64,000 bases of DNA from Tachypleus tridentatus (lineage: Eukaryota > Arthropoda > Merostomata > Xiphosura > Limulidae). Every line of letters starts with the position of its first letter. Within the stretch, counting starts at the first letter, position 1. Shown here in pieces: positions 3,460 to 54,322 of this stretch. Below the pieces are notes generated by a model. It searched no databases. It saw only the letters and a list, made by a program, of their open reading frames with translations, and had not been told where the DNA came from. Position numbers and translations under genes: made by a program. The stretch is taken from contig NC_134827.1 of NCBI RefSeq assembly GCF_004210375.1, forward strand, positions 106,005,285-106,069,284, given 5' to 3'.

Positions 3460-4516
3460 ATTCTATTGTTATCCTTTTCACAAAATCGTTAATGTTCTAT
3501 TGGTGTTTTTGACAAAATCATTAATATATATCTTGTATTGTTGCCTTTTTTTCATAAATTGTTAATATTCTGCGTGGGTGTTTTGTTATAGCAAAGCTAC
3601 ATTGGGCTGTCTGTTGAGTCTAACAAGGGGAACCGAACCCCTGATTTTAGCGTCGTAAATCCGAAGACTTACCGCTGTATCAGCAAGAGGCCGTTAATAT
3701 TCTATTGTTGTTGTTGTTTTCACAGAATCATTAATATTCTATTGTTGTTGTTTTCACAGAATCATTAATATTCTATTGTTGCTGTTTTCACAACAGATTG
3801 TTGTTGTTTTCACAGAATCATTAATATTCTATTGTTGTTGTTGTTTTCACAGAATCATTAATATTCTATTGTTGTTGTTTTCACAGAATCATTAATATTC
3901 TATTGTTGTTGTTGTTTTCACATAATCATTAATATTCTATTGTTGTTGTTTTCACAGAATCATTAATATTCTATTGTTGTTGTTTTCACAGAATCTTTAA
4001 TATTCTATTGTTGTTGTTGTTTTCACAGAATCTTTAATATTCTATTGTTGTTGTTGTTTTCACAGAATCATTAATATTCTATTGTTGTTGTTGTTTTCAC
4101 ATAATCATTAATATTCTATTGTTGTTGTTTTCACAGAATCATTAATATTCTATTGTTGTTGTTGTTTTCACAGAATCATTAATATTCTATTGTTGTTGTT
4201 TTCACAGAATCATTAATATTCTATTGTTGTTGTTGTTTTCACAGAATCATTAATATTCTATTGTTGTTGTTTTCACAGAATCATTAATATTCTATTGTTG
4301 TTGTTTTCACAGAATCATTAATATTCTATTGTTGTTGTTTTCACAGAATCATTAATATTCTATTGTTGTTGTTGTTTTCACAGAATCATTAATATTATAT
4401 TATTGTTGTCCTTTTCACAAAATAATTAATATTCTATTGTTGTTGTTGTCAGAGAATCATCAATATTATATTATTGTTGTCCTTTACACAAAATCATTAA
4501 TATTCTGTTGTTGTTG
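3460..4516. repeat. Minisatellite, 34-37 bp unit
   Basis: About 25 units of an AT-rich monomer made of aatcattaatattctattg followed by (ttg)n and ttttcacag. Length varies mainly by 3 bp through the ttg run. The leftmost units (3460-3560) are diverged; a SINE B' splits them from the homogeneous part at 3693-4516. Confidence 0.9.
3579..3692 (-). repeat. SINE B' copy inside the 34-37 bp array
   Basis: Contains atagcaaagctacattgggc, the B box ggggaaccgaacccctg and cgtaaatccgaagacttacc. Flanked by gttaatattc at 3561-3570 and 3693-3702, which could be a target duplication, though the host array repeats that word anyway. Confidence 0.7.
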
Positions 4517-4889
4517 TTTGTATTTATCTAGTAGTCTCTAAACCTATCTTCACTCTATGAATATTGACAAAAGAAAAGAAACCATCAAAGTACGTTCAGT
4601 ATACAATTTTGTTTATAGTTTTGGTAAAAGCTAATGATGAGGTACTCTACGAAGTTCTACAGAGTCTGAGAATCGTCCAGAGTGGAACCAAGATACACAT
4701 AGTAGTGTAAACAATGATCTGACTTATCATAAGTATAAATAAACAGATGTGTGAGAACAGAATCTCATGTAGCTCTCTTCTTCTGATTGACTGAAGAACC
4801 AGTCGTGGCTCGAGGTTATTTTGCCTTACTGGGAACCAAGAGTTTATCATTTGGAAATCGTTGCCACAAATTATTGAGTCTGTGTCTGC

Positions 4890-8155: not shown

Positions 8156-8282
8156 AATGGTTACAAAACATTTACAAAGAGCCACGTTGTTCTATTATGA
8201 CCTCCTCAAGTTATATTTATGATTTCTAAAATTCAGAAAGTAAGAACAAAAAATTATAATTGCCTTTTGTTATTACCACCAG

Positions 8283-8540
8283 ATGGAGGTCGTTTTGAAC
8301 CCATACTACGTCAGTGTTCTTTGCGACTGACAGATGCTGAGGTGATGGTCAGTTACGAGGGAAGGGCACTAATAATGGACAAAGAAATTGCCCTTCCTCA
8401 CGCTAGTAAGCTGAACTTCAGATGTTCCGAAGTTGGAATGTTCAAGTTTGTAGGGCAGAAGACCATAACTTGCTCTGATGGACATTGGAGTTCCACTTTT
8501 CCCCGGTGTGTGGCCACAACTCTGCAGCAAAATTTCTCAG
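8283..8540 (+). CDS. hig: hig-like exon A: first CCP (sushi) module
   Basis: An 85-codon internal exon of a Hikaru genki-type protein. Hikaru genki is known as a secreted Ig/CCP protein of the synaptic cleft that organises acetylcholine receptor clusters in flies. The exon follows a T-rich acceptor ending ttaccaccag and ends at donor g|gtatga; both flanking introns are phase 1. The peptide carries four cysteines in CCP spacing (RQCSL, NFRCSE, ITCSD, PRCVA) with the usual G-W (DGHW) before the last Cys. No methionine start belongs to it, so the N-terminus lies upstream. The hig assignment rests on module order (one CCP, Ig, further CCPs) and family resemblance by eye. An alternative would be another CCP/Ig matrix protein. 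Confidence 0.85.
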
Positions 8541-9124
8541 GTATGATACAGTATCATTCAGCGCACCAATGAACTTACATCATAGATTTAGAATAAATTA
8601 AAAATTCAAGTAGTTTGATATTTAAAGTCAAAACTCTCTATTCACCCTCTCAAAAGAATTTATTCCTTCTGAAACTGAACCTGTTTGGTATTATCGAAAT
8701 TAAAATGTTTACATGAAATTTTGATTGAAATTGATTTTAAAATGAGGCCAAACAGAACTCTTATTTTATAAAACATATTCGATCTGCTCCAACAACTTAT
8801 CGACTAAGTTTTATAGTGCAAATAGTGACGTAAAATTTGGTTTCAAGAGTAGATGGAGACAGTCTTCTGTATCTGGGGTATACACGAGGTTATTTCCTCA
8901 AAACAAGAGATATTCTACCTTTGAAAATCTGCAGGGGACATGTCCCTCCTGAAAATTAAATATGTGAATGTGAGAAGCCTTAATACTTACAAATAAGAAT
9001 GGATATCAAAGTTCGGTCTTTGTCATTTCACTGTTATCCCAAAAGACTGTTTGTTATAAACACAAAGCTACACAAATCTGACTGTTTGCATTGCGAATTC
9101 GCAGAAATACCAATGCCTCAGTGG

Positions 9125-12625: not shown

Positions 12626-12737
12626 AAAAAAAACTGAACTAATAATCGACTTTCAGCAAAGCGTATTTTATGACCCATAGTGAATCATGTTGTCTTAAAA
12701 GTTTGTTTGTTTGAATTAAAAGTTAACGGCTCTGTTC

Positions 12738-14495
12738 TTTCTCTATCTATGTTTACATCTTTTGTCTCACTGTCTTCTCTCACTATCTATGTTTACATCT
12801 TTTGTCTCACTATATCTTATCTTCCCTCACTATCTATGTTTACATCTTTTGTCTCACTATATCTTATCTTCCTCACTATCTATGTTTACATCTTTTGTCT
12901 CACTATATCTTATCTTCCCTCACTATCTATGTTTACATCTTTTGTCTCACTATATCTTATCTTCCCTCACTATCTATGTTTACATCTTTTGTCTCACTAT
13001 ATCTTATCTTTCTCTCACTATCTATGTATACATCTTTTGTCTCACTATATCTTATCTTCTTCCTCACTATCTATGTTTACATCTTTTGTCTCACTACTAT
13101 GTCTTATCTTCACTCACTATCTATGTTTACATCTTTTGTCTCACTATATCTTATCTTTCCTCACTATCTATGTTTACATCTTTTGTCTCATTATATCTTA
13201 TCTTTCTCACTATCTATGTTTACATCTTTTGTCTCACTATATCTTATCTTTCCTCACTATCTATGTTTTGCATCTTTTGTCTCACTATATCTTATCTTTC
13301 TCTCACTATCTATGTTTACATCTTTTGTCTCACTATACTTATCTTTCTCTCACTATCTATGTATACATCTTTTGTCTCACTATATCTTATCTTCTCTATC
13401 TCACTATCTTTGTCTCACTTTATCTTCCCTCTATCTTTTCTTTTCTCACTATATCTTATCTTTCTCACTATCTATGTTTTACATCTTTTGTCTCACTATA
13501 TCTTATCTTTCCTCACTATCTATGTTTACATCTTTTGTCTCACTTATCTTATCTTATCTTTTCCTCACTATCTATGTTTACATACGTCTTTTGTCTCACT
13601 ATATCTTATCTTCTTCCCTCACTATCTATGTTTTATATCTTTTTGTCTCACTATATCTTATCTTTCCTCACTATCTATGTTTACATCTTTTTTGTCTCAC
13701 TATATCTTATCTTTCTCACTATCTATGTTTACATCTTTTGTCTCACTATATCTTATCTTCCCTCACTATCTATGTTTACATCTTTTGTCTCACTGTCTTC
13801 TCTCACTATCTATGTATACATCTTTTGTCTCACTATATCTTATCTTCCCTCACTATCTATGTTTTACATCTTTTTGTCTCACTATATCTTATCTTCTCAC
13901 TATCTATGTATACATCTTTTGTCTCACTATATCTTATCTTCCCTCACTATCTATGTTTACATCTTTTGTCTCACTATATCTTATCTTCTCTCACTATCTA
14001 TGTTTACATCTTTTGTTCTACTTTATATCTTATCTTTTTCCTCACTATCTATGTTTACATCTTTTGTCTCATTATATCTTATCTTCATTATATCTTATCT
14101 TCCTCACTATCTATGTTTACATCTTTTGTCTCACTATATCTTATCTTCCTCACTATCACTATCTATGTCTTTATCATCTTTTGTCTCACTATATCTTATC
14201 TTCCTTCACTATCTATGTTTACATCTTTTGTCTCACTATATCTTATCTTCTCTCACTATCTATGTTTACATCTTTTGTCTCACTATATCTTATCTTCCCT
14301 CACTATCTATGTTTACATCTTTTGTCTCACTATATCTTATCTTCCCTCACTATCTATGTTTACATCTTTTGTCTCACTATATCTTATCTTCCCTCACTAT
14401 CTATGTTTACATCTTTTGTCTCATTATATCTTATCTTCCCTCACTATCTATGTATCTCTATTCTCTCTCTTTCTTGTCTCTCACTCTCTCTTCTT
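12738..14495. repeat. Pyrimidine-rich minisatellite, ~47 bp unit
   Basis: Roughly 37 units of tcactatctatgtttacatc + ttttgtctcactatatctta + tcttccc, with 1-4 bp indels between units. The plus strand has almost no G and no AG dinucleotide. All three plus-strand frames stay open for over 1.6 kb purely because the unit lacks stop codons; it is not a gene. Confidence 0.95.
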
Positions 14496-18129: not shown

Positions 18130-19530
18130 TTAAGGTGTTCCTTTGTATTGGTTTATTTTTGGTTTAAGTTGTTGTATAAGTAAGGCTTCTTTAATTTTGC
18201 GTTTGTTTATGTTTGTTTCTTTATTTAGTATTTGAGTGTTTTCTATGGTTATGCTGTGTTTATTTGACTTGCAGTGTTCGAAAACATGTGAAGGTGACTT
18301 TTTTATGTTCTTTGAATCTGGTTTCCATTTTTCTACTTGTTTCTCCAATATAGAAGTCGTGGCAGTTATCACATTGTATTTTATAAATAATGTTGGTGTG
18401 GTGTTTGTCAGTGTAGTTTTTACATACTATAGACCTCAGTTTTGTGCCTGGTTTTTGAATAAATTTGGTATTAATTGGAATGTCATATTTTGTTACTAGT
18501 TTTTGCCAAATGTTGGTTATTTTTCCACTGATGTCAGGAATATATGGTATACAGCAGTATATGGTTTCGTGATTTTTTGATTCGTGAGATATATTTACTT
18601 TAGTTGGTTGATTTTGCTTTCTGTCAAGGTGTGTGCGTATAATGTTTTCTACGGTTTGTGGAGGAAACTTATTGATGTTGATGAAGTATTGTTTTATTTT
18701 GTCTAATTCATCGTTAATTTTATCTGGTGAGCATAGTTTTATGTCTGTGTTTATTTGGTTTCTTACTAAGTTGAGTTTTTGTTTTGTTTCATGTCCTGTG
18801 TATAGTCCAGTATGGGTGATTTTTCGGTGGATTTCTGTTTTGAATTGTGTGTCGGTTCTTGTAATTTTGAGGTTAAGAAATGGTATTTGATTGCTGTCTT
18901 CCTGTTCACATGTGAAGTTAATGTTGGGATGTATAGGGTTAATGTGATTGAAAAAATTAAGTATGTGTTCTGTAGATTTGAATCCCGCAACCGTGTCATC
19001 TACATATCTGTACCAGTATAGTGGTGGATGTAATGCTGTGTTAATTGCTTGTGTTTCAACTTGTGTCATAAAAAATATTGGCCAGGACTGGTGATACTGG
19101 GTTGCCCATGCTTAGGCCATTAGTTTGTATATAGTTGTGGTTGTTGAACATGAAGTTTGTCTTTATCGTGGTGAATTCTATGAGGGTTGCTAACTGGTTA
19201 CTGGGAATTTCTATAGTTGGGTTAGGGTCTCGGATATAGAGTTCTAAGGCTATCTTGCAGGCTTCAGTGGTTGGAACTTCTGTAAAGAGGGATATAACAT
19301 CGAATCTGGCCATTAAGGCTTTATGATTAAGTTGATTTAGATTAGACTTGAAATTAAAAGAGTCTTTGATGAATGAGCTGGCTGATGTTACATATTTGGA
19401 GAATGCCCATGCTATGTATTTACCAAGATTGTTATTAAACGATTCATATGCGTACATTATTGGTCGTAATGGACAATCTGGTTTATGAGGTTTGAGGATG
19501 CCGTATATCTCAAAATTACAAGAACCGACA
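18130..19530 (-). pseudogene. PLE reverse transcriptase / GIY-YIG endonuclease, broken
   Basis: Reading right to left: RT fingers and palm start around 19510 (LKPHKPDCPLRPIM), the catalytic-A region RFDVISLFTEVP near 19300, SMGNPVSPVLANIFY near 19100, the YVDDT active-site box near 19005 and FLNLKI near 18880. The C-terminal GIY-YIG domain reads IIYKIQCDNCHDFYIGETSR near 18390-18330, and the tail ends about 18130. Frames change near 19070 (between SPVLANIFY and the YVDD part) and near 18295, in a run of T. The N-terminal part of the protein, before the RT fingers, is absent. Inactive retroelement remnant; the family call is by motif order. Confidence 0.85.
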
Positions 19531-19589
19531 CACAATTTAAAACAGAAATCCATATATATTTCTCTACAAGTGGGTTTTCTCGACATCAC

Positions 19590-19671
19590 TAAAAAATAGT
19601 GATTTAATAGGGAAAATGTGAACACTATGAAATTAGCCTAAATACAAGTTGGTGAAAAGTTTAAGGCCATA
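19590..19671 (+). repeat. Tc1 left inverted repeat, inner part
   Basis: Contains aatagggaaaatgtgaacac and the inner direct repeat ggtgaaaagtttaaggccat. Matches the reverse complement of 20816-20896. Confidence 0.85.
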
Positions 19672-19716
19672 CAAAAATAAGTCCTAAACAGGGTAGGAAA
19701 TGCCCAACAAGAGATC

Positions 19717-20703
19717 TTAGTAGTGAGTTGCACGACCGTCATTGCGAATAACTTTAAACATTCGTTTTGGCATGGTCGATATAAGCGTTTGCAGAAGGCT
19801 GGCTCGAATGTTATTCCAAGTGGTAAAGATGGCTTCACGAAGATCATGCACTGTTTGGAATTGACGTCCATTTCTATAGACTTCCCTTGCCATCCACCCC
19901 AAACATTTTCAATGGGGTTCAGCTCGGGCGAATACGCTGGATGGTCCAAAAGAATCACATTATTCACCATGAAAAATTCCTTTGTTCTGCGGGCATTGTG
20001 AATTGCTGCGTTGTCCTGCTGAAAGATCCAGCCATTTTTACACAAGCGAGGGCCTTCAGTCAATAAGGATGCTCTCTCAAACATGAAAATGTAGCCAGCT
20101 GCTGTTTGACACTCCTATATAACATGAAGCTCCATTATTCCATGGAAGGAGTAAGCACCCCAGATCATGATGGAACCTCCTCCACTGTGTCGTGTAGAAA
20201 ATGCCTCCGGTGAGATATCCTTATCGTGCCAGTAACGTTGGAAGCCGTCTGGACCATCTAGGTTAAATTTTTTCTCATCAGAGAACAAAACCTTCGTCCC
20301 ATGTTTGGTGCTTCTCAGCAAAGTTTAACCGAGCTGTTTTGTGGTGTGGAAGGAGGCGTGACCTTTGAAGACGTTTACGGTTTTTAAACCCTTTCTCTCG
20401 TAGATGCCGTCTTATTGTTCTTGAGCTGCATTCTGCGTCCATAAGGGCCTTAATCTGGTTCGACAAATGGCTGGTGTCTTGCTGGACAACCCGTCGAATC
20501 CTCCTGCTCAAAGCAGGCGAAATTCTTTTGGGCCGACCACTTGAAATTCTCGTTCCGTATCCCTCAGGGTCTTTTAAGAAATTTACAACAACAGTTTTAC
20601 TTCGCCCAATCTCACCAACGATGACACGTTGAGAGAGATCTTGCTTTTGCAGCTCGGCAATTCTGCCACGTTCAAACTCTGTCAACTTTTTAGCCTTTGC
20701 CAT
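19717..20703 (-). pseudogene. Tc1-family DD34E transposase, decayed
   Basis: Starts MAKAKKLTEFERGRIAELQ at 20703, with an N-terminal paired-like helix-turn-helix (TEFERGRIAELQKQDLSQ) and a GRPKR AT-hook-like linker. The catalytic domain shows [10 protein letters not shown] (first Asp), QQDNAAIHNARR (second Asp) and SPELNPIENVWG (Glu); 34 residues separate the second Asp from the Glu. It ends with a stop at 19717-19719. A frame change lies near 20300, an in-frame stop near 20115 and another frame change near 19900, so no active enzyme is made. Reconstructed span of about 329 codons fits the usual Tc1 length of about 340. Confidence 0.9.
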
Positions 20704-20815
20704 GTTTTTACCCAGTGTAACACAAGAGATGTCAGTGGGAGATTTGACAACGCTAATGCTTGAACACAAATGACTAAATTTCGTTACGTGTTTACCGATT
20801 AACGCTTCGTTTCAG

Positions 20816-21235: not shown

Positions 21236-21936
21236 AGTTTGTTTGTTTTTTTATTTAACGCAAAATTACACCAGGGCTATCTGTGCTATCCGTCCCTAAT
21301 TCAGCAGTATAAGACTAGATAGAAGGCAGCTGGTCATCACCACCCACAGCCAAGTTCCAGTGCTGGATCAAGACGATCGTATGGCCTGGGCACCTTCTGT
21401 TCGTAGGCCCTACAAGCCGTATAAGTTAAACCAAAAGTCGGATAAATTATAGATATATAAATCATAAATTCTAGTTTGAAATTCAAGTATTTATATACGT
21501 GTAATGTACACTTGCTGTTTATGTGTGTTAATACACTGTAGTTAAATATCAGCTGTATATTCATGTGAACGTAAGTACACAAACTAATACAAAATATTTT
21601 GTATAACTTAAAGATGTAATAAAGTTTTTACAGTAAAAAATGTGTGTTTAATATTTTTGTGATTGTTATTTTTTTGGCAATCTAAGATTAACTTTAAAAA
21701 AAAATTCATAGACCCATAGTTTTGTTAGCCCTTAAATTTTCTTAGGCCCTAAGCACTGTGCCTATTGTACCTAAGAAATAATCCCGCCCTGCTGCCTACT
21801 ACTGGGCTACACTTTTACCAACTAATAGTGGGATTGACTGTAACTTATAACGCCTCCACGACTGAAAGGCAAACATGTTTGATGTGGCGGGGATTCGAAC
21901 CCGCGACTTTCGGATGACGAGTCGAGCCATGCTAGG
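21236..21936 (-). repeat. SINE A copy split by a hAT-like insertion
   Basis: Tail and part of the body are at 21236-21357 (ggctatctgtgctatccgtc, agaaggcagctggtcatcac). Body and head continue at 21792-21936 (tgggctacacttttaccaac, ggggattcgaacccgcgac, gagccatgctagg). Confidence 0.8.
21358..21791. mobile_element. Non-autonomous hAT-like insertion (~434 bp)
   Basis: The termini cagtgctgga and, inverted, cagggcggga look like hAT ends (CAG-type imperfect inverted repeats). Subterminal words (gtaggccctac; ttaggccctaagc) recur on both sides. No transposase is encoded. The flanking SINE letters gcc-a-act appear on both sides, consistent with a mutated 8-bp duplication. Confidence 0.5.
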
Positions 21937-22017
21937 TAGATCTTCGCGCTTTGGAGCTATGGATGCGTTATGAAAATCCACAATCCAGTCGCACATTTGT
22001 TTTATTTCTTTTAACAG

Positions 22018-22194
22018 ATGTGGAGTGTCCACCTATACAGTCTGTGGACCGTCATCGTGTGATGGCTGTTGAAGGAAACAAGATGCACAGCAAGGCACAC
22101 TTTGCATGCGTGGAAGGATACAGGTTAAAGGGGTCCAAAGACATCACGTGCACAGCTTCTGGAAAATGGTCTGACGATCCGCCTACCTGCCAAC
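22018..22194 (+). CDS. hig: hig-like exon D: second CCP module
   Basis: One complete CCP/sushi module in a phase 1-1 exon: VECPPIQSV (Cys1), HFACVEGYRLKG (Cys2), ITCTASGKW (Cys3 and the conserved Trp), DDPPTCQ (Cys4). Acceptor tttaacag, donor caac|gtatgt. CCP modules are about 60-residue beta-sandwiches held by Cys1-Cys3 and Cys2-Cys4 bonds; in Hikaru genki they follow the Ig domain, as here. The remnant of a tRNA-like repeat ends less than 25 bases upstream of the acceptor tract. Confidence 0.9.
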
Positions 22195-22432
22195 GTATGT
22201 TAAATACAAAACAATTAACTTAAAAAATAATTGATAAACCCGAAGAACAGTGTTTTTAATGAACATTTTGTTTTTACGAAGACAATATTTTTAAATTATT
22301 TTTCATGCACTCAGTTGGAATGGATATATTTTGTATTGTTTTGAAAAGGTTTCAAGTATTCATTCCGTTTTTGTTGTTGCTGTTTTTATTTTAGATTAGG
22401 CTTAGGATTTGCTGATATGGTTCTTGGTAACT

Positions 22433-23691: not shown

Positions 23692-23942
23692 TTGTTTGTT
23701 TGTTTGTTTTCTGAATTTCGCGCAAAGCTAGACGAGGGCTATCTGCACTAGCCGTCCCTAATATAACAGTGTAAGACTAGAGGGAAAGGAGCTAGTCATC
23801 ACTACCCACCGCCAACTCTTGGGCTACTCTTTTACCAACGAATAGTGAGATTGACCGAAACATTACAACGCCCCTACGGTTGAAAGGGCGATCATGTTTG
23901 ATTACAAGTCGAACGCCTTAACTCATCTGGCCAAGCCAGGCC
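23692..23942 (-). repeat. SINE A copy with a short target duplication
   Basis: From ttgtttgtttgttttctgaa to ggccaagccaggcc, lacking about 25 bases around the B box. The word gactagg occurs at 23685-23691 and 23943-23949. Confidence 0.85.
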
Positions 23943-25208: not shown

Positions 25209-25565
25209 AGATTCTTTGATGTTTTCATTGTTTTTGTGCGCCATACTTACAGGGGAAACTTTAATTTGTGTTTTCATCAGATTATTTAGGTTTTAAATGT
25301 TCATTGTACATGTTCATTCAGTGATTAGAACAATAGCTGGGTCATTGATTTGACCAATCTTCCAGATTATAGGTTGCTCAAATGATGTGTTCTCTGCTAC
25401 ATGGTTGATGTTCTTTGGTGGATTTCATGCAAGTGGTATTTTATCAAAAAAAACAATTAAAAGGGAATAAAAATTTTTATTTCAATGGATATTTAATTGA
25501 CTTTGTGGAAGTAACATGAACTCAAACTGTTCAGTACGTGGGTTAATAATTTAATTATTTGTGTA

Positions 25566-27202
25566 TACTAACGCAGTGATGTATCGCCACAGATGCTATA
25601 CTAACGCAGTAGTGTATCGCCACAGATGCTATACTAACGCAGTGGCGTATCGCCACAGATGCATACTAACGCAGTAGTGCATCGCCACAGATGCTATACT
25701 AACGCAGTGGCGTATCGCCACAGATGCATACTAACGCAGTAGTGCATCGCCACAGATGCTATACTAACGCAGTGGCGTATCGCCACAGATGCTATACTAA
25801 CGCAGTAGTGTATCGCCACAGATGCTATACTAACGCAGTGGTGTATCGCCACAGATGCATACTAACGCAGTAGTGCATCGCCACAGATGCTATACTAACG
25901 CAGTGGCGTATCGCCACAGATGCATACTAACGCAGTAGTGTATCGCCACAGATGCTATACTAACGCAGTGATGTATCGCCACAGATGCTATACTAACGCA
26001 GTAGTGTATCGCCACAGATGCTATACTAACGCAGTGATGTATCGCCACAGATGCTATACTAACGCAGTGGTGTATCGCCACAGATGCTATACTAACGCAG
26101 TAGTGTATCGCCACAGATGCTATACTAACGCAGTGGCGTATCGCCACAGATGCATACTAACGCAGTAGTGCATCGCCACAGATGCTATACTAACGCAGTG
26201 GCGTATCGCCACAGATGCATACTAACGCAGTAGTGCATCGCCACAGATGCTATACTAACGCAGTGGCGTATCGCCACAGATGCTATACTAACGCAGTAGT
26301 GTATCGCCACAGATGCTATACTAACGCAGTGGTGTATCGCCACAGATGCTATACCAACGCAGTGGTGTATCGCCACAGATGCTATACTAACGCAGTGGTG
26401 TATCGCCACAGATGCTATACTAACGCAGTAGTGTATCGCCACAGATGCTATACTAACGCAGTAGTGTATCGCCACAGATGCTATACTAACGCAGTGATGT
26501 ATCGCCACAGATGCTATACTAACGCAGTGGTGTATCGCCACAGATGCTATACTAACGCAGTGATGTATCGCCACAGATGCTATACTAACGCAGTAGTGTA
26601 TCGCCACAGATGCTATACTAACGCAGTGATGTATCGCCACAGATGCTATACTAACGCAGTGGTGTATCGCCACAGATGCTATACTAACGCAGTGGTGTAT
26701 CGCCACAGATGCTATACTAACGCAGTGGTGTATCGCCACAGATGCTATACTAACGCAGTGGTGTATCGCCACAGATGCTATACTGGTGATGTATCGCCAC
26801 AGATGCTATACTAACACAGTGGTGTATCGCCACAGATGCTATACTAACACGGTGATGTATCGCCACAGATGCTATACTAACGCAGTGGTGTATCGCCACA
26901 GATGCTATACTAACGCAGTGGTGTATCGCCACAGATGCTATACTAACGCAGTGGTGTATCGCCACAGATGCTATACTAACGCAGTGATGTATCGCCACAG
27001 ATGCTATACTAACGCAGTAGTGTATCGCCACAGATGCCATACTAACGCAGTAGTGTATCGCCACAGATGCTATACTAACGCAGTGGTGTATCGCCACAGA
27101 TGCTATACTAACGCAGTGATGTATCGCCACAGATGCTATACTAACGCAGTGATGTATCGCCACAGATGCTATACTAACGCAGTGGTGTATCGCCACAGAT
27201 GC
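25566..27202. repeat. Minisatellite, 33 bp unit, about 50 copies
   Basis: Unit: tactaacgcagtngtgtatc + gccacagatgcta. Variants with gtggcgtatcgccac form a perfect 6-bp dyad with a 3-base loop. A shortened monomer (gatgcatac for gatgctatac) alternates with full ones at 25619-25935 and 26124-26290, giving a two-monomer higher-order unit. The array stays open on both strands because 33 is divisible by three; it is not coding. Confidence 0.95.
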
Positions 27203-27680: not shown

Positions 27681-27976
27681 ACACAAAAACATTTTGCTAC
27701 AAGGAAGTGTAAGAACTCGAGAAGTGTAAATTTGGAACGACGCCATTAACTGCAAGGTTAAATTATTTACGATTCCAAAAGAGGACCTGTCGACCCTCTA
27801 AGTCCTCATATAGATGTAACTATGTTTACGTTTATATTTTACTCAGACTTAATATCTTTGTAAATTAAACAATTTTCCAAAACCATCGCTATTCTATCTG
27901 TAGAGATTTCTGTATTTTTTATTATCTGTGTTTCTTTTATTTACTTCTATATATATGCGTTTTCACTGTCCAATAG

Positions 27977-28153
27977 TCATCCAGTGTCCACCTTTGACCC
28001 CAAACGCTCCGCATCTAAAGCTCAGCACTCACAACCGGACATACGGTGAGCGTGTCACATTCTCGTGTCCTACAAGATACAGACTTGTGGGGGTGACGTC
28101 TTTACAGTGTTTGAAAAACGAATCCTGGTCAGACGACCCTCCTATATGTGAAG
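27977..28153 (+). CDS. hig: hig-like exon E: third CCP module
   Basis: Complete CCP in a phase 1-1 exon of the same length (177 nt) as exon D: IQCPPLTPN (Cys1), VTFSCPTRYRLVG (Cys2), LQCLKNESW (Cys3, Trp), DDPPICE (Cys4). Acceptor gtccaatag, donor gaag|gtaagc, a near-perfect donor. An N-glycosylation sequon (NRT) and a second (NES) are visible. Equal length and shared D-D-P-P-x-C ending suggest D and E arose by exon duplication. Confidence 0.9.
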
Positions 28154-28254
28154 GTAAGCCTACGTCATCACTTTAAAATCAAGTCTTGGCCAGAATGATA
28201 AGTGATCACTCAATATTTGTTGTTTTTACTAAGCTATACAAACAGCTAAACCAC

Positions 28255-44194: not shown

Positions 44195-45521
44195 TGTTGA
44201 GTGTTTCCAGTCAATGTGTTGTTTACTTGTTATGTTGAGTGTTTCCAGTCAATGTGTTGTTCATCTGTTATGTTCAGTGTTCCCAGTCAATGTGTTGTTC
44301 ATCTGTTATGTTGAGTGTTTCCAGTCAATGTGTTATTCATCTGTTATGTTGAGTGTTCCCAGACAGTGTGTTGTTCATCTGTTATGTTCAGTGTTTCCAG
44401 TCAATGTGTTGTTCATCTGCTATGTTGAGTGTTTCCAGTCAATGTATTGTTCATCTGTTATGTGGAGTGTTTGCAGTCAATGTGTTGTTCATCTGTTATA
44501 TTCAGTGTCTACAGTCAATGTGTTGTTCATCTGTTATGTTCAGTGTTTCCAGTCAATGTTTTATTCATCTATTATGTTTAGTGTTTCCAGACAATGTGTT
44601 ATTCATCTGTTATGTTGAGTGTTTCCAGTCAATGTGTTATTCATCTTAATGTTAAGTGTTCCCAGATAGTGTGTTGTTCATCCGTTATGTAGAGTGTTTC
44701 CAGTCAATGTGTTTTTCATCTGCTATGTTGAGTGTTTCCAGTCAATGTGTTGTTCATCTGTTATGTTGAGTGTTTCCAGTCAATGTGTTATTCACTTGTT
44801 ATGTTGAGTGTTTCCAGTCAATGTGTTGTTCAGTTGTTATGTTGAGTGTTTCCAGTCAATGTGCTGTTCATCTGTTATGTTGAGTGTTCCCAATCAATGT
44901 GTTATTCATCTGTTATGTTCAGTGTTTCCAGGCAATGGGTTATTCATCTGTTATGTTGAGTGTTCCCAGACAGTGTGTTGTTCATCTGTTATGTTGAGTG
45001 TTTCCAGTCAATGTGTTGTTCATCTGCTATGTTGAGTGTTTCCAGTCAATGTGTTGTTCATCTGTTATGTTGAGTGTTTCCAGTCAATATATTGTTCATC
45101 TGTTATGTTGAGTGTTTCCAGTCAATGTTTTGTTCTTCTGTTATGTTCAGTGTTTCCAGTCAATGTGTTGTTCACTTGTTATGTTGAGTGTTTCCAGTCA
45201 ATGTGTTGTTCAGTTGTTATGTTGAGTGTTTCCAGTCAATGTGCTGTTCATCTGTTATGTTGAGTGTTCCCAATCAATGTGTTGTTCATCTGTTATGTTC
45301 AGTGTTTCCAGTGTTATTCAATGTTCAGTGTTTTGGGTTATTCATCTGTTATGTTGAGTGTTCAATCCAGATGTTCAGTGTTTGTGTGAGTGTTCAGTGT
45401 GTTGTTCATCTGTTATGTTGAGTGTTTCCAGTCAATGTGTTGTTCATCTGTTATTTTGAGTGTTTCCAGTCAATGTGTTGTTCATCTGTTATGTTGAGTG
45501 TTTCCAGTCAATGTGTTGTTC
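44195..45521. repeat. Minisatellite, 38 bp unit, about 34 copies
   Basis: Unit ttgagtgtttccagtcaatg + tgttgttcatctgttatg. Variant positions (tttcc/ttccc, ttgttc/ttattc, ttgag/ttcag) are shared by blocks of neighbouring units. One scrambled patch lies at 45300-45410. Confidence 0.95.
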
Positions 45522-45587
45522 AATTTTTTAAAAATATTTTCATTCTTGATTTCAACGTAAATCACGTGACAAAAGCACGGAAGTAAA

Positions 45588-45853: not shown

Positions 45854-46142
45854 TCGTAAACAAAATATATCAATTTTTTCAAATTTTAATTTCTTAAATC
45901 AGCATTAAAAATTACATTCAATTATTTTTCTCTTTGAACCTGATGCATGAAACAGAAAGTATTGCCCATCTTTAAATAAAACAAATCTCAAAATAATTGA
46001 TGAGAAATTATAACTAAGATTATAAATTTACCCTAATCTTACTTAGAATAATTTCAGTTTGAAAGTAGACTGATATAGATCCTAATGAATAATAAATGTG
46101 TGAGCCCTCTCCACGATTGGTATTGGTGGCGCACAAAAATAT

Positions 46143-46412
46143 TTGTTTGTTTGTTTCGAATTTCACGCAAAGCTACTCAAGGTCTATCTGCGCTAGCCGT
46201 CCCTAATTTATCAGTGTAAGACCAGTGGGAAAGCTGCTAGTCATCACCGCCCACCGCAAAGTCTTGGGCTACTCTTTTACCAACGGATAGTGGGATTGAC
46301 CGTCACATTATAGCGCCTCCACGTTTGAGAGGGCGAGCATGTTTGGTGCGACTGAGATTCGAACCCTCGACCCTTGGATAGCGAGTTAAGCGGCCTCTAG
46401 CCACCTGGTCGT
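46143..46412 (-). repeat. SINE A copy, left parent of the duplication junction
   Basis: Diagnostic bases: tttcacgcaaagctactcaa in the tail half, and ccagtgggaaagctgctagt and ccaccgcaaagtcttggg in the body half. Confidence 0.92.
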
Positions 46413-46448
46413 TCAGAAGTAATTTTACTCGTCTATAGCCTCGGACTC

Positions 46449-47036
46449 CATAAACTGTCTACAAAAATAAATAGTGGAGGATGGATAATTTCTAAACTGT
46501 CTACAAAAATAAATAGTAGAGGATGGATAATTTCTAAACTGTCTACAAAAATAAATAGTGGAGGATGGATTATTTCTAAACTGTCTACAAAAATAAATAG
46601 TGGAGGATTGATAATTTCTAAACCGTCTACAAAAATAAATAGTGGAGGATGGATAATTTCTAAACTGTCTACAAAAATAAATAGTGGAGGATGGATAATT
46701 TCTAAACTGTCTACAAAAATAAATAGTAGAGGATGGATAATTTCTAAACTGTCTACAAAAATAAATAGTGGAGGATGGATAATTTCTAAACTGTCTACAA
46801 AAATAAATAGTGGAGGATGGATAATTTCTAAACTGTCTACAAAAATAAATCGTGGAGGATGGATAATTTCTAAACTGTCTACAAAAATAAATCGTGGAGG
46901 ATGGATAATTTCTAAACTGTCTACAAAAATAAATAGTGGAGGATGGATAATTTCTAAAATGTCTACAAAAATAAATAGTGGAGAATGGATAATTTCTAAA
47001 CTGTCTACAAAAATAAATAGTGGAGGATGGATAATC
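46449..47036. repeat. Minisatellite, 42 bp unit, 14 copies (duplication unit 1)
   Basis: Unit aaactgtctacaaaaataaa + tagtggaggatggataatttct. A 14-codon period stays open on both strands and gives spurious repetitive reading frames. Confidence 0.95.
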
Positions 47037-47267
47037 TGCAATATATTACGATTTTTTTAAACTTAATTAATCACTTGATTTTCGTCTCAACCACTTAGAC
47101 TTATGATAGAAAATAATTCCACGTTTTTTCTTCACTGTAAGGGCCACCTGCACAAACACACACATAGACATTATGGTGTTGACTACGCCCCCTATCACTT
47201 TCTGAGGTGACTGATATGATGGTCTCAAACTAATATATTTCTTAAACTACAAAAGTAATTGTAAAAA

Positions 47268-47425
47268 TTGAAATACTTCCACAGTATTGAACTCATGTTC
47301 GAAAAGATCGTCTTGTAAGCTCTATGTCAACTTCCTTTTATAATTGAAATACTTCCACAGTACTGAACTCATGCTGGAAAAGATCGTCTTGTAAGCTCTT
47401 TGTCAACTTCCTTTTATAATTGGGT
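47268..47425. repeat. Two-copy direct repeat, ~78 bp
   Basis: attgaaatacttccacagta and gatcgtcttgtaagctct occur in two adjacent units with few differences. The same pair is present in the second duplication unit (49535-49690). Confidence 0.85.
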
Positions 47426-48324
47426 GAAAAAGAAATACAGGAAATATAATATTCGTGTGTGAGCAAGGTGGTATATGCGTTTGTTATTAAACTTCGTTCA
47501 ATATAATTAGCTCGTGCGAAACGGTATTAGGATTATAAAACTGTTTCGTTTCTTTTTATTTCACTGCACTTTTCACTCATTATTAGTGGAACTCGTTTGT
47601 TCTAAACAAATTAATACGGCTCAGAATTTACCCTAGATGAAACAGCCAAACATTAAACGTCATTGGTGTACAATAAATTCTCTCTAATTAGGACACATCT
47701 AACGCTGATTAAATTTAATCAGCCAGCTCGGATTTTTCATTCTTTCTTTCTTTATATGTACATACATATATACAGAGACGTACACACACACTTGCTTCAA
47801 TACGCGAAGAGTTTGTATGGAAAGTCTTCAGATAAGGAAAGAAATAAGCAAAGCTGACCTTAAGATAAGACAACAAAGGTAACTGCCAAGGGTCCTTCGT
47901 TATGATGGATCTGCATAGATTATATTTTTACAAGCGATTCTTAAATATGAATCGGAGAAATCTTGAAACATATTATTGACTTATTAATGAACTTAGTACG
48001 TCTCTCTGTCGTACAGTTTCCGCCAAAGGTGATTTTTATCTTATGATAATTTTGTTTACAATTTTATATTGCGTAACACTATGATGTGTCGTAAACGTTT
48101 CATCTTCCTTAGGTTTCTGCATTGAAAAATATGGTCAGAATGTAATGATTCTGTTGAACGCCTAAATTATTTTAAAATACAATCAGTGTTATTAAAAATT
48201 GGAAACGGAAAAAGAAAGATCAGTATATAACATATAATGACTTTAAAAGTGTTTGTTTAGTAATTAATTAATAATTAAAATTTGGTGATGGATAAATTAA
48301 CAGTTCTTAGATAACAATGTAAAG

Positions 48325-48597
48325 TTTGTTTGGTTTGTTTTGAGTTTCGCGCAAAGCTACTCGAGGGCTATCTGTGCTAGCCGTCCCTAATTTAGCAGTG
48401 TAAGATCAGTGGGAAAGCTGCTAGTCATCACCGCCCACCGCAAAGTCTTGGGCTACTCTTTTACCAACGAATAGTGGGATTGACCGTCACATTATAGCGC
48501 CTCCACGTTTGAGAGGGCGAGCATGTTTGGTGCGACTGAGATTCGAACCCTCGACCCTTGGATAGCGAGTTAAGCGGCCTCTAGCCACCTGGTCGTT
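48325..48597 (-). repeat. Hybrid SINE A at the duplication junction
   Basis: The left 75 bases (tttcgcgcaaagctactcga, tatctgtgctagccgtcc) match the right-hand SINE at 50589. From about 48407 (cagtgggaaagctgctagt) it matches the left-hand SINE at 46143. Confidence 0.93.
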
Positions 48598-50671
48598 CAG
48601 AAGTAATTTTACTCGTCTATAGCCTCGGACTCCATAAACTGTCTACAAAAATAAATAGTGGAGGATGGATAATTTCTAAACTGTCTACAAAAATAAATAG
48701 TAGAGGATGGATAATTTCTAAACTGTCTACAAAAATAAATAGTGGAGGATGGATTATTTCTAAACTGTCTGCAAAAATAAATAGTGGAGGATTGATAATT
48801 TCTAAACCGTCTACAAAAATAAATAGTGGAGGATGGATAATTTCTAAACTGTCTACAAAAATAAATAGTGGAGGATGGATAATTTCAAAAGTGTCTACAA
48901 AAATAAATAGTGGAGGATGGATAATTTCTAATCTGTCTACAAAAATAAATAGTAGAGGATGGATAATTTCTAAACTGTCTACAAAAATAAATAGTGGAGG
49001 ATGGATAATTTCTAAACTGTCTACAAAAATAAATAGTGGAGGATGGATAATTTCTAAACTGTCTACAAAAATAAATATTGGAGGATGGATAATTTCTAAA
49101 CTGTCTACAAAAATAAATCGTGGAGGATGGATAATTTCTAAACTGTCTACAAAAATAAATAGTGGAGGATGGATAATTTCTAAACTGTCTACAAAAATAA
49201 ATAGTGGAGGATGGATAATTTCTAAACTGTCTACAAAAATAAATCGTGGAGGATGGATAATTTCTAAACTGTCTACAAAAATAAATAGTGGAGGATGGAT
49301 AATCTGCAATATATTACGATTTTTTTAAACTTAATTAATCACTTGATTTTCGTCTCAACCACTTAGACTTATGATAGAAAATAATTCCATGTTTTTTCTT
49401 CACTGTAAGGGCCACCTACACAAACACACACATAGACATTATGGTGTTGACTACGCCCCTATCACTTTCTGAGGTGACTGATATGATGGTCTCAAACTAA
49501 TATATTTCTTAAACTACAAAAGTAATTGTAGAAATTGAAATACTTCCACAGTATTGAACTCATGTTCGAAAAGATCGTCTTGTAAGCTCTATGTCAACTT
49601 CCTTTTATAATTGAAATACTTCCACAGTACTGAACTCATGCTGGAAAAGATCGTCTTGTAAGCTCTTTGTCAACTTCCTTTTATAATTGGGTGAAAAAGA
49701 AATACAGGAAATATAATATTCGTGTGTGAGCAAGGTGGTATGTGCGTTTGTTATTAAACTTCGTTCAATATAATTAGCTCGTGCGAAACGGTATTAGGAT
49801 TATAAAACTGTTTCGTTTCTTTTTATTTCACTGCACTTTTCACTCATTATTAGTGGAGCTCGTTTGTTCTAAACAAATTAATACGGCTCAGAATTTACCC
49901 TAGATGAAACAGCCAAACATTAAACGTCATTGGTGTACAATAAATTCTCTCTAATTAGGACACATCTAACGCTGATTAAATTTAATCAGCCAGCTCGGAT
50001 TTTTCATTCTTTCTTTCTTTATATGTACATACATATATACAGAGACGTACACACACACTTGCTTCAATACGCGAAGAGTTTGTATGGAAAGTCTTCAGAT
50101 AAGGAAAGAAATAAGCAAAGCTGACCTTAAGATAATACAACAAAGGTAACTGCCAAGGGTCCTTCGTTATGATGGATCTGCATAGATTATATTTTTACAA
50201 GCGATTCTTAAATATGAATCGGAGAAATCTTGAAACATATTATTGACTTATTAATGAACTTAGTACGTCTCTCTGTCGTACAGTTTCCGCCAAAGGTGAT
50301 TTTTATCTTATGATAATTTTGTTTACAATTTCATATTGCGTAATACTATGATGTGTCGTAAACGTTTCATCTTCCTTAGGTTTCTGCATTGAAAAATAGG
50401 GTCAGAATATAATGATTCTGTTGAACGCCTAAATTATTTTAAAATACAATCAGTGTTATTAAAATTGGAAACGGAAAAAGAAAGATCAGTATATAACATA
50501 TAATGACTTTAAAAGTGTTTGTTCAGTAATTAATTAATAATTAAAATTTGGTGATGCATAAATTAACAGTTCTTAGATAACAATGTAAAGTTTGTTTGGT
50601 TTGTTTTGAGTTTCGCGCAAAGCTACTCGAGGGCTATCTGTGCTAGCCGTCCCTAATATAGCAGTGTAAGA
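48407..50671. repeat. Tandem segmental duplication, unit 2 (2.27 kb)
   Basis: Second copy, 81 bases longer overall, mainly because of 84 bases (two units) more in the 42-bp array. Confidence 0.92.
48633..49304. repeat. Minisatellite, 42 bp unit, 16 copies (duplication unit 2)
   Basis: Same unit as 46449-47036. The first five units match one-to-one with that array including private variants (for example gattatttct, aaaccgtct). Confidence 0.95.
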
Positions 50672-50851
50672 CTAGAGGGAAGGCAGCTAGTCATCACCAC
50701 CCACTGCCAACTCTTGGGCTACTCTTTTACCAACGAATAGTGGGATTGACCGTGACATTATAACGCCCCCACGGCTGAGAGGGCGAGCATGTTTGGTGCG
50801 ATGGGGATGCGAACCCGCGACCCTCAGATTACGCTTGGCCATGCCGGGCCC
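50589..50851 (-). repeat. SINE A copy, right parent of the duplication junction
   Basis: Carries the common body gactagagggaaggcagcta, unlike the left parent. Ends cttggccatgccgggccc; a short deletion removes part of the head. Confidence 0.92.
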
Positions 50852-51112
50852 TTCTCTCGTTCGGTGCACTCTTCCCGTTCCCACGGCAAACAATGTAAAG
50901 CATAATTTCTTGTACAATATTTATCGTATGATAAAACAATAACTTTGTTTTCCTAATACAATTGCTGAAATAACAATACAAACTGATTTTTCCTCTCTGT
51001 GTACTGTATAAGTTTTACAACTCTAGTTTGGTAAACTAATAGTAGATCAACTAACTTGGTTGTTACTGCTGTTCCCCAACAGATAAATTTACAAATTTAC
51101 AGTTCTAAAAAT

Positions 51113-51280: not shown

Positions 51281-51416
51281 ATGTCTAAGTCTACTCAAGA
51301 AAGCAACTTTTTAGGAGAGTTGGACTTTTGCAGTGAATGTGGTGCCATTTTGCCATTACCTGGTTCTTCGGACGTTGTATGCTGCAAGGTTTGCCAGTTT
51401 AGCATAGATGTCCGTA
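51281..51416 (+). CDS. POLR1H: POLR1H exon 1 (RNA polymerase I subunit RPA12), N-terminal zinc ribbon
   Basis: Starts at ATG 51281 (aataaaATGtc). Encodes residues 1-45 plus one base: the N-terminal zinc ribbon C17-x2-C20 (CSECGAILPLPG) and C35-x2-C38 (CCKVCQF). RPA12/POLR1H is the small Pol I subunit whose N-terminal ribbon docks on the second-largest subunit and whose C-terminal, TFIIS-like ribbon supports RNA cleavage and backtrack rescue in the nucleolus. Donor gta|gtaaga, phase 1. Summed over four exons the protein is 124 residues, about the size of the human protein (126). The start choice follows family length. Confidence 0.95.
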
Positions 51417-53167: not shown

Positions 53168-54322
53168 AATAAAGTTCCTGATTCAGTAGTTGGAAGGTAT
53201 GACCATAAAGTATCTGATTCAGTAGTTGGAAGGTATGACCATAAAGTTTCCGATCCAGTAGTTGGAAGGTATGACCATAAAGTTCCTGATTCAGTAGTTG
53301 GAAGGTATGACCATAAAGTATCTGATTCAGTAGTTGGAAGGTATGACTATAAAGTATCTGATTCAGTAGTTGGAAGGTATGACCATAAAGTTCCTGATTC
53401 AGTAGTTGGAAGGTATGACCATAAAGTTCCTGATTCAGTAGTTGGAAGGTATGACCATAAAGTATCTGATTCAGTAGTTGGAAGGTGTGACCATAAAGTT
53501 CCTGATTCAGTAGTTGGAAGGTATAACCATAAAGTATCTGATTCAGTAGTTGGAAGGTATGACCATAAAGCATCTGATTCAGTAGTTGGAAGGTATGACC
53601 ATAAAGCATCTGATTCAGTAGTTGGAAGGTATGACCATAAAGTTCCTGATTCAGTAGTTGGAAGGTATGACCATAAAGTTTCTGATTCAGTAGTTGGAAG
53701 GTATGACCATAAAGTTCCTGATCCAGTAGTTGGAAGGTATGACCATAAAGTTCCTGATCCAGTAGTTGGAAGATATGACCATAAAGTTTCTGATTCAGTA
53801 GTTGGAAGGTATGACCATAAAGTTCCTGATCCAGTAGTTGGAAGGTATGACCATAAAGTTTCTGATTCAGTAGTTGGAAGGTATGACCATAAAGTTTCTG
53901 ATTCAGTAGTTGGAAGGTATGACCATAAAGATTCTGATTCAGTAGTTGGAAGGTGTGACCATAAAGTTTCTGATTCAGTAGTTGGAAGGTGTGACCATAA
54001 AGTTTCTGATTCAGTAGTTGGAAGGTGTGACCATAAAGTATCTGATTCAGTAGTTGAAAGGTGTGACCATAAAGCATCTGATTCAGTAGTTGAAAGGTGT
54101 GACCATAAAGCATCTGATTCAGTAGTTGAAAGGTATGACCATAAAGCATCTGATTCAGTAGTTGGAAGGTATGACCATAAAGTATCTGATTCAATAGTTG
54201 GAAGGTGTGACCATAAAGTTCCTGAATCAGTAGTTGGAAGGTATGACCATAAAGATTCTGATTCAGTAGTTGGAAGGTATGACCATAAAGTTCTGATTCA
54301 GTAGTTGGAAGGTATGACCATA
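53168..54322. repeat. Minisatellite, 36 bp unit, about 32 copies
   Basis: Unit gattcagtagttggaaggta + tgaccataaagttcct. Three alternating spacer types (gttcct, gtttct, gtatct/gcatct) and two body types (ggtatgacc, ggtgtgacc) occur in blocks. It gives a 347-codon minus-strand frame that is only a by-product of the 36-bp period. Confidence 0.95.

Follow-up and report, generated by a model that had tools for sequence, protein, structure and literature searches.

A duplicated segment between direct SINE copies

The locus analysed here raises the question of how a segment of about 2.2 kb, lying between two SINEs of the same orientation, came to be present twice, and whether recombination between those SINEs doubled it. 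We compared the window, by which we mean the whole 64,000-bp stretch of DNA under analysis, with itself, keeping matches of at least 300 bp that lie more than 600 bp apart (E <= 1e-20). One long direct match was found, 46142-48558 against 48325-50824, with 94.2% identity over 2502 columns; 87 of these are gap columns, most of which come from a difference in minisatellite length. It is the sole match in this set that cannot be ascribed to a minisatellite or to a pair of dispersed SINE copies. One SINE family has three copies in the same orientation within 46.1-50.9 kb, which we call S1, S2 and S3, and both the S1-S2 and the S2-S3 interval carry the same body. The arrangement is as follows.

46142-46414, minus strand: S1, putative left parental SINE, whose T-rich tail is at the left and whose head, containing a GGTTCGAATC-like B box, is at the right
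48325-48598, minus strand: S2, hybrid SINE at the junction, of right-parent type to 48375 or 48395 and of left-parent type from 48407
50591-50888, minus strand: S3, putative right parental SINE; its head has lost an internal stretch and is separated from the right target-site duplication by additional sequence
46212-48395: tandem unit 1 (2184 bp); the tied placement of the switch moves both ends by up to 20 bp to the left
48396-50661: tandem unit 2 (2266 bp)

The segment between two same-orientation SINEs is thus present as direct tandem copies, as in a SINE-SINE duplication, and the doubling described in the initial annotation is borne out by the single long tandem self-match; apart from the interval that it gave for the switch, its coordinates and cited motifs were correct. 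Unit 2 is longer than unit 1 by 82 bp: it has two more 42-bp minisatellite units, which add 84 bp, and two single-base gaps take off 2 bp. The window has 30 direct SINE pairs within 6 kb of each other, three of which are formed by S1, S2 and S3 and one of which is only 390 bp apart. Self-comparison, which covers matches of at least 300 bp that are more than 600 bp apart, showed no further duplicated spacer. The tandem duplication is apparently non-coding: the body holds no reading frame of 80 or more amino acids except those which run through the minisatellite.

The SINE family

S1 and S3 appear to belong to a single tRNA-like SINE family that is abundant in the window. They are 88% identical over 234 aligned columns, and the family covers 6720 of the 64,000 bp of the window in 34 interspersed matches, some of which are fragments. 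S1 was assigned to the minus strand because its T-rich tail lies at the left and its B-box head at the right. A GGTTCGAATC-like B box is visible in the family consensus, and we take this motif to be the Pol III B box. ARAGORN and Rfam gave no match anywhere in the window, the tRNA-like SINE head included. An exact 50-nt core of the SINE had no matches in viral contigs and none in prokaryote contigs, and pieces of 20-21 nt from three places in the SINE, searched as text on both strands, had no match in the literature covered by that search. According to the part of the source available, SINEs make up a small share of the repeats in the horseshoe-crab genome (PMC7815833), and this does not speak for a horseshoe-crab origin of the SINE. 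In S3 itself, about 38 bp of extra sequence (50851-50888) follow the usual end of the head (ccgggcc) and precede the right target-site duplication, which would fit a retrotransposed transcript that had begun upstream.

A hybrid SINE at the junction

The hybrid structure of the duplication is demonstrated in its sequence. We scored as informative those sites at which S1 differs from S3 and S2 equals one of them. There are 29 such sites in S2 (48341-48560) and, with 3 for S3-like and 1 for S1-like, they read 33333313111111113111111111111. A single switch from right-parent to left-parent type fits 27 of them and leaves two misfits, so that the middle SINE does combine the tail half of the right-hand copy with the head half of the left-hand copy, as had been proposed. 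Only 11 of 100,000 shuffles match this fit, a figure that serves as a guide only, since adjacent sites do not count as independent trials. No gap crosses the switch when S1, S2 and S3 are aligned together, and the breakpoints therefore lie at homologous positions.

48376-48406: interval that holds the switch, with two equally parsimonious sub-intervals, 48376-48391 and 48396-48406

A switch between 48375 and 48392 leaves 48395 and 48470 as misfits, and one between 48395 and 48407 leaves 48392 and 48470. We aligned 21 copies of the family from the window, with S1, S2 and S3 among them and fragments excluded. In this alignment S1 is odd against the family at 48470 and at 48395, and S3 is odd at 48392, where one other copy (at 23694) departs from the family as well. 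Either placement of the switch therefore needs one nearby private change in addition to that at 48470, and by the family consensus the misfit sites are probably private mutations. Site 48406 is private to S2. The interval 48396-48406 given in the initial annotation is thus one of two best intervals, with which 48376-48391 ties, and its claim of base resolution does not hold, the switch being located only to a 31-bp interval. The stretch of perfect identity between S1 and S3 at the switch is 11 bp (46212-46222) or 16 bp (46192-46207), according to placement, and reaches 31 bp if both nearby private changes postdate the duplication.

Flanks and target-site duplications

Target-site duplications were examined in the three SINE copies; that of S3 is clear, that of S1 is weak, and S2 has none, as expected for a hybrid.

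50579-50590: left target-site duplication of S3, aacaatgtaaag
50889-50900: right target-site duplication of S3, aacaatgtaaag
48313-48324: aacaatgtaaag, left target-site-duplication copy ahead of the hybrid S2, without a partner at the right end of S2

The 12-bp direct repeat around S3 is perfect, and none of 2000 shuffles reached it. The right end of S2 carries no matching copy of the target site, and the longest word common to the two ends of S2 is 4 bp; its head and right flank equal those of S1 (0 of 76 sites differ). The target-site duplication is thus intact at the putative parent S3 and disrupted at the hybrid S2. This pattern of aacaatgtaaag, together with the S1-like flank of S2, would be expected if S3 had inserted once into a single-copy locus and S2 had taken its left side from S3 and its right side from S1. 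For S1, the candidate is the 9-bp word acaaaaata at 46133-46141 and 46461-46469, which 15 of 2000 shuffles reach.

The right copy of acaaaaata falls inside the first 42-bp unit of the minisatellite described below, and the array may have grown from this site.

Origin of the duplication

We consider it very probable that the locus arose by SINE-mediated tandem duplication, through an exchange between S3 and S1 with the hybrid S2 at the junction. The ancestral locus would have had the order S1, body, S3, with two minus-strand SINEs in the same orientation about 2 kb apart; we infer this order because the target-site duplication of S3 is intact and S2 has no matching right copy. In a misaligned exchange, S3 on one chromatid or template would have met S1 on the other, and the left part of S3 would have been joined to the right part of S1 within what is now 48376-48406. 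Such an exchange would have doubled the body, leaving the hybrid S2 between the copies. Later drift would then have added about 0.94% of substitutions and two 1-bp indels, and taken the minisatellites to 14 and 16 units.

The site classes, the flanks and the target-site duplication give good support to recombination between two directly oriented SINE copies, and the density of the SINE family in the window adds to this in terms of available substrate. Against a single exchange stand the two of 29 sites that require private mutations; the weakly visible target-site duplication of the left parent (9 bp) also counts against the SINE-mediated origin, and the shortness of the junction homology (11 or 16 bp) counts against classical crossing-over in particular.

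Crossing-over or template switching

The initial annotation attributed the duplication to non-allelic homologous recombination (NAHR) by unequal crossing-over. Recombination from SINE to SINE stands, but crossing-over is inseparable here from template switching or annealing, because the two SINEs, about 88% alike overall, are perfectly identical at the switch over 11 or 16 bp (31 bp at the most). Classical RAD51-dependent NAHR in mammals is described, in the part of the source available, as needing more than 100 bp of perfect identity (PMC9675761), and the junction here falls well short of that length. The same part of that paper gives junction homologies below 40 bp for the majority of homology-driven rearrangements between transposable elements in human, with a partner similarity of about 80% and, for Alu, a median of about 15 bp, and its authors consider most such human events likely to be RAD51-independent (PMC9675761).

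Given that the duplication is real, there is an even chance that it arose by template switching (of the MMBIR or FoSTeS type) or by short-homology annealing between the SINEs and not by meiotic crossing-over. The short perfect identity between partners of this similarity favours such a route, as do the human and Alu junction lengths just cited. The junction is nevertheless clean and in register, with no extra insertion, deletion or further jump of the kind that would speak for template switching, and the sequence by itself does not tell the two routes apart. Because the junction sits within the range reported in PMC9675761, we hold unequal crossing-over and template switching or annealing to be about equally probable.

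Repeats within the duplicated body

Both tandem units contain a 42-bp minisatellite and a shorter tandem pair.

46451-47035: 42-bp minisatellite, copy 1, 14 units
48635-49303: 42-bp minisatellite, copy 2, 16 units
47266-47422: 76-bp tandem pair in the body of unit 1, with its unit 2 counterpart at 49533-49689

Minisatellite units 1-6 of the two copies share their variants, in matching order, save that unit 4 of copy 2 has one further change; the last unit is identical between the copies. When the arrays are aligned by unit, the best position for the two extra units is inside copy 2, which leaves six differences in the 14 matched units. An alignment by base places the gap at the end and leaves 12 differences in 585 positions; the unit-level placement fits better. 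The members of the 76-bp pair differ from each other by four mismatches in 81 positions. As the pair is present in both units and no unit-to-unit difference is listed inside it, it should be older than the 2.2-kb duplication.

Divergence between the units

Outside the array, units 1 and 2 differ at 15 of 1595 sites (0.94%; 95% CI 0.53-1.55%) and by two 1-bp indels. None of these differences falls in the SINE head and the spacer ahead of the array (0 of 76). The body past the array has 12 in 1283 sites as well as both indels, the left part of the middle SINE differs from S3 at one of 75 sites, and the right part of S1 differs from the middle SINE at two of 161. With neutral rates of a few substitutions per billion sites per year, a divergence of 0.94% corresponds to about one to a few million years; it is also inside the allelic diversity of some arthropods. 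The initial annotation had counted only a few substitutions between the copies, which is correct, and had concluded that the event is young and may be polymorphic. This does not follow, because a divergence of 0.94% fits alleles or a fixed duplication at least a million years old.

The same divergence bears on whether the tandem copies are real. Two diverged haplotypes of a single-copy region could have been set in tandem by the assembly, with a false join inside the SINE. A difference of 0.94% and unequal minisatellite lengths are possible between two alleles, the junction lies inside a repeat that is matched 34 times in the window, and a false haplotype join at the SINE would yield the identical string. 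On the other hand, S3 and S1 overlap perfectly over just 11 or 16 bp (31 bp at the most), which would give an assembler little to join on, and the window is without any N. We regard such an artefact as unlikely.

A conversion tract between the copies was sought in the positions of the differences along the unit and none was seen, as these positions do not deviate significantly from an even spread (P = 0.22, Kolmogorov-Smirnov (KS) test). The densest cluster, with six differences in 255 bp, was equalled or exceeded in 8174 of 20,000 random draws. A duplication of the body by slippage, or by end joining of unrelated breakpoints, with S2 becoming a hybrid later through gene conversion, is extremely improbable: the two off-switch sites could be short conversion tracts and nothing else speaks specifically for it, whereas at the unit boundary the hybrid is in register, the spread of the differences gives no sign of conversion, and the explanation is less parsimonious than exchange between S3 and S1.

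Relation to known systems

The event is a member of a well-known, Alu-like kind and adds no new mechanism. As in the human Alu-Alu rearrangements of the TEMR-HR class, so far as the available part of the source describes them, it involves a close pair of SINEs in direct orientation that are roughly 80-90% alike, a short in-register junction homology with a full-length chimeric SINE at the junction, and a size inside the reported range of 93-25,425 bp (PMC9675761). It differs in that the SINE belongs to another, tRNA-like family in another organism, presumably an arthropod, and in that it is a duplication; the same part of that paper stresses deletions, with duplications and inversions too few for a significance test in one comparison (PMC9675761). 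It also resembles the retrotransposon-mediated NAHR at the mouse Abp genes, where repeats are proposed, in the portion of the paper at hand, as the substrate of tandem duplication (PMC3669608); unlike that case, no gene is evident in the duplicated unit here and there are two copies only. A phrase search of the literature for chimeric or hybrid SINEs gave, among the matches listed and as far as their texts were available, one paper on Entamoeba repeats (PMC2657916), the rest dealing with the sine function. Nothing relevant on horseshoe crab SINEs was found in the literature covered by the search.

The locus offers a readable case of SINE-mediated duplication from a host that is presumably not a mammal, the mammals being the group in which such events are best described, and, as hybrid SINE, target-site duplication and minisatellite markers all agree, it could serve as a calibration locus.

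Neighbouring genes and other features of the window

51281-51400, plus strand: likely start of RPA12 (POLR1H), which lies about 620 bp beyond the right end of unit 2

The start codon at 51281 opens 40 residues, 33 of which match RPA12, a subunit of Pol I (PDB chain 7ob9_I, E = 5.6e-09); Pfam gave no match for this RPA12-like piece. As the duplication lies upstream of the likely RPA12 start codon, an effect on that gene may be imagined, as speculation. It is highly unlikely that the SINE family drives turnover of host copy number by Alu-like short-homology exchange and that, in addition, the duplication still segregates and alters the regulation of RPA12.

Elsewhere in the window, sushi/CCP domain matches were found on the plus strand in three reading frames, at 8201-8569 (E = 1.5e-4), 21936-22220 (E = 1.1e-10) and 27904-28173 (E = 1.3e-9); these are probably exons that belong to a single multi-sushi gene and are separated by long introns. 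The sushi domains, the SINEs and the RPA12 match together suggest that the host is an animal. On the minus strand, 18260-20808 gives weak reverse transcriptase and GIY-YIG matches, both under the Pfam cut-off, which are presumably fragments of a Penelope-like element. They adjoin Tc1/Tc3-like transposase pieces on the same strand, and possibly one element is inserted in the other. Long minisatellites with units of about 33-47 bp and up to 50 copies are present at 3694-4519, 12735-14453, 25564-27202, 44195-45522 and 53169-54322.
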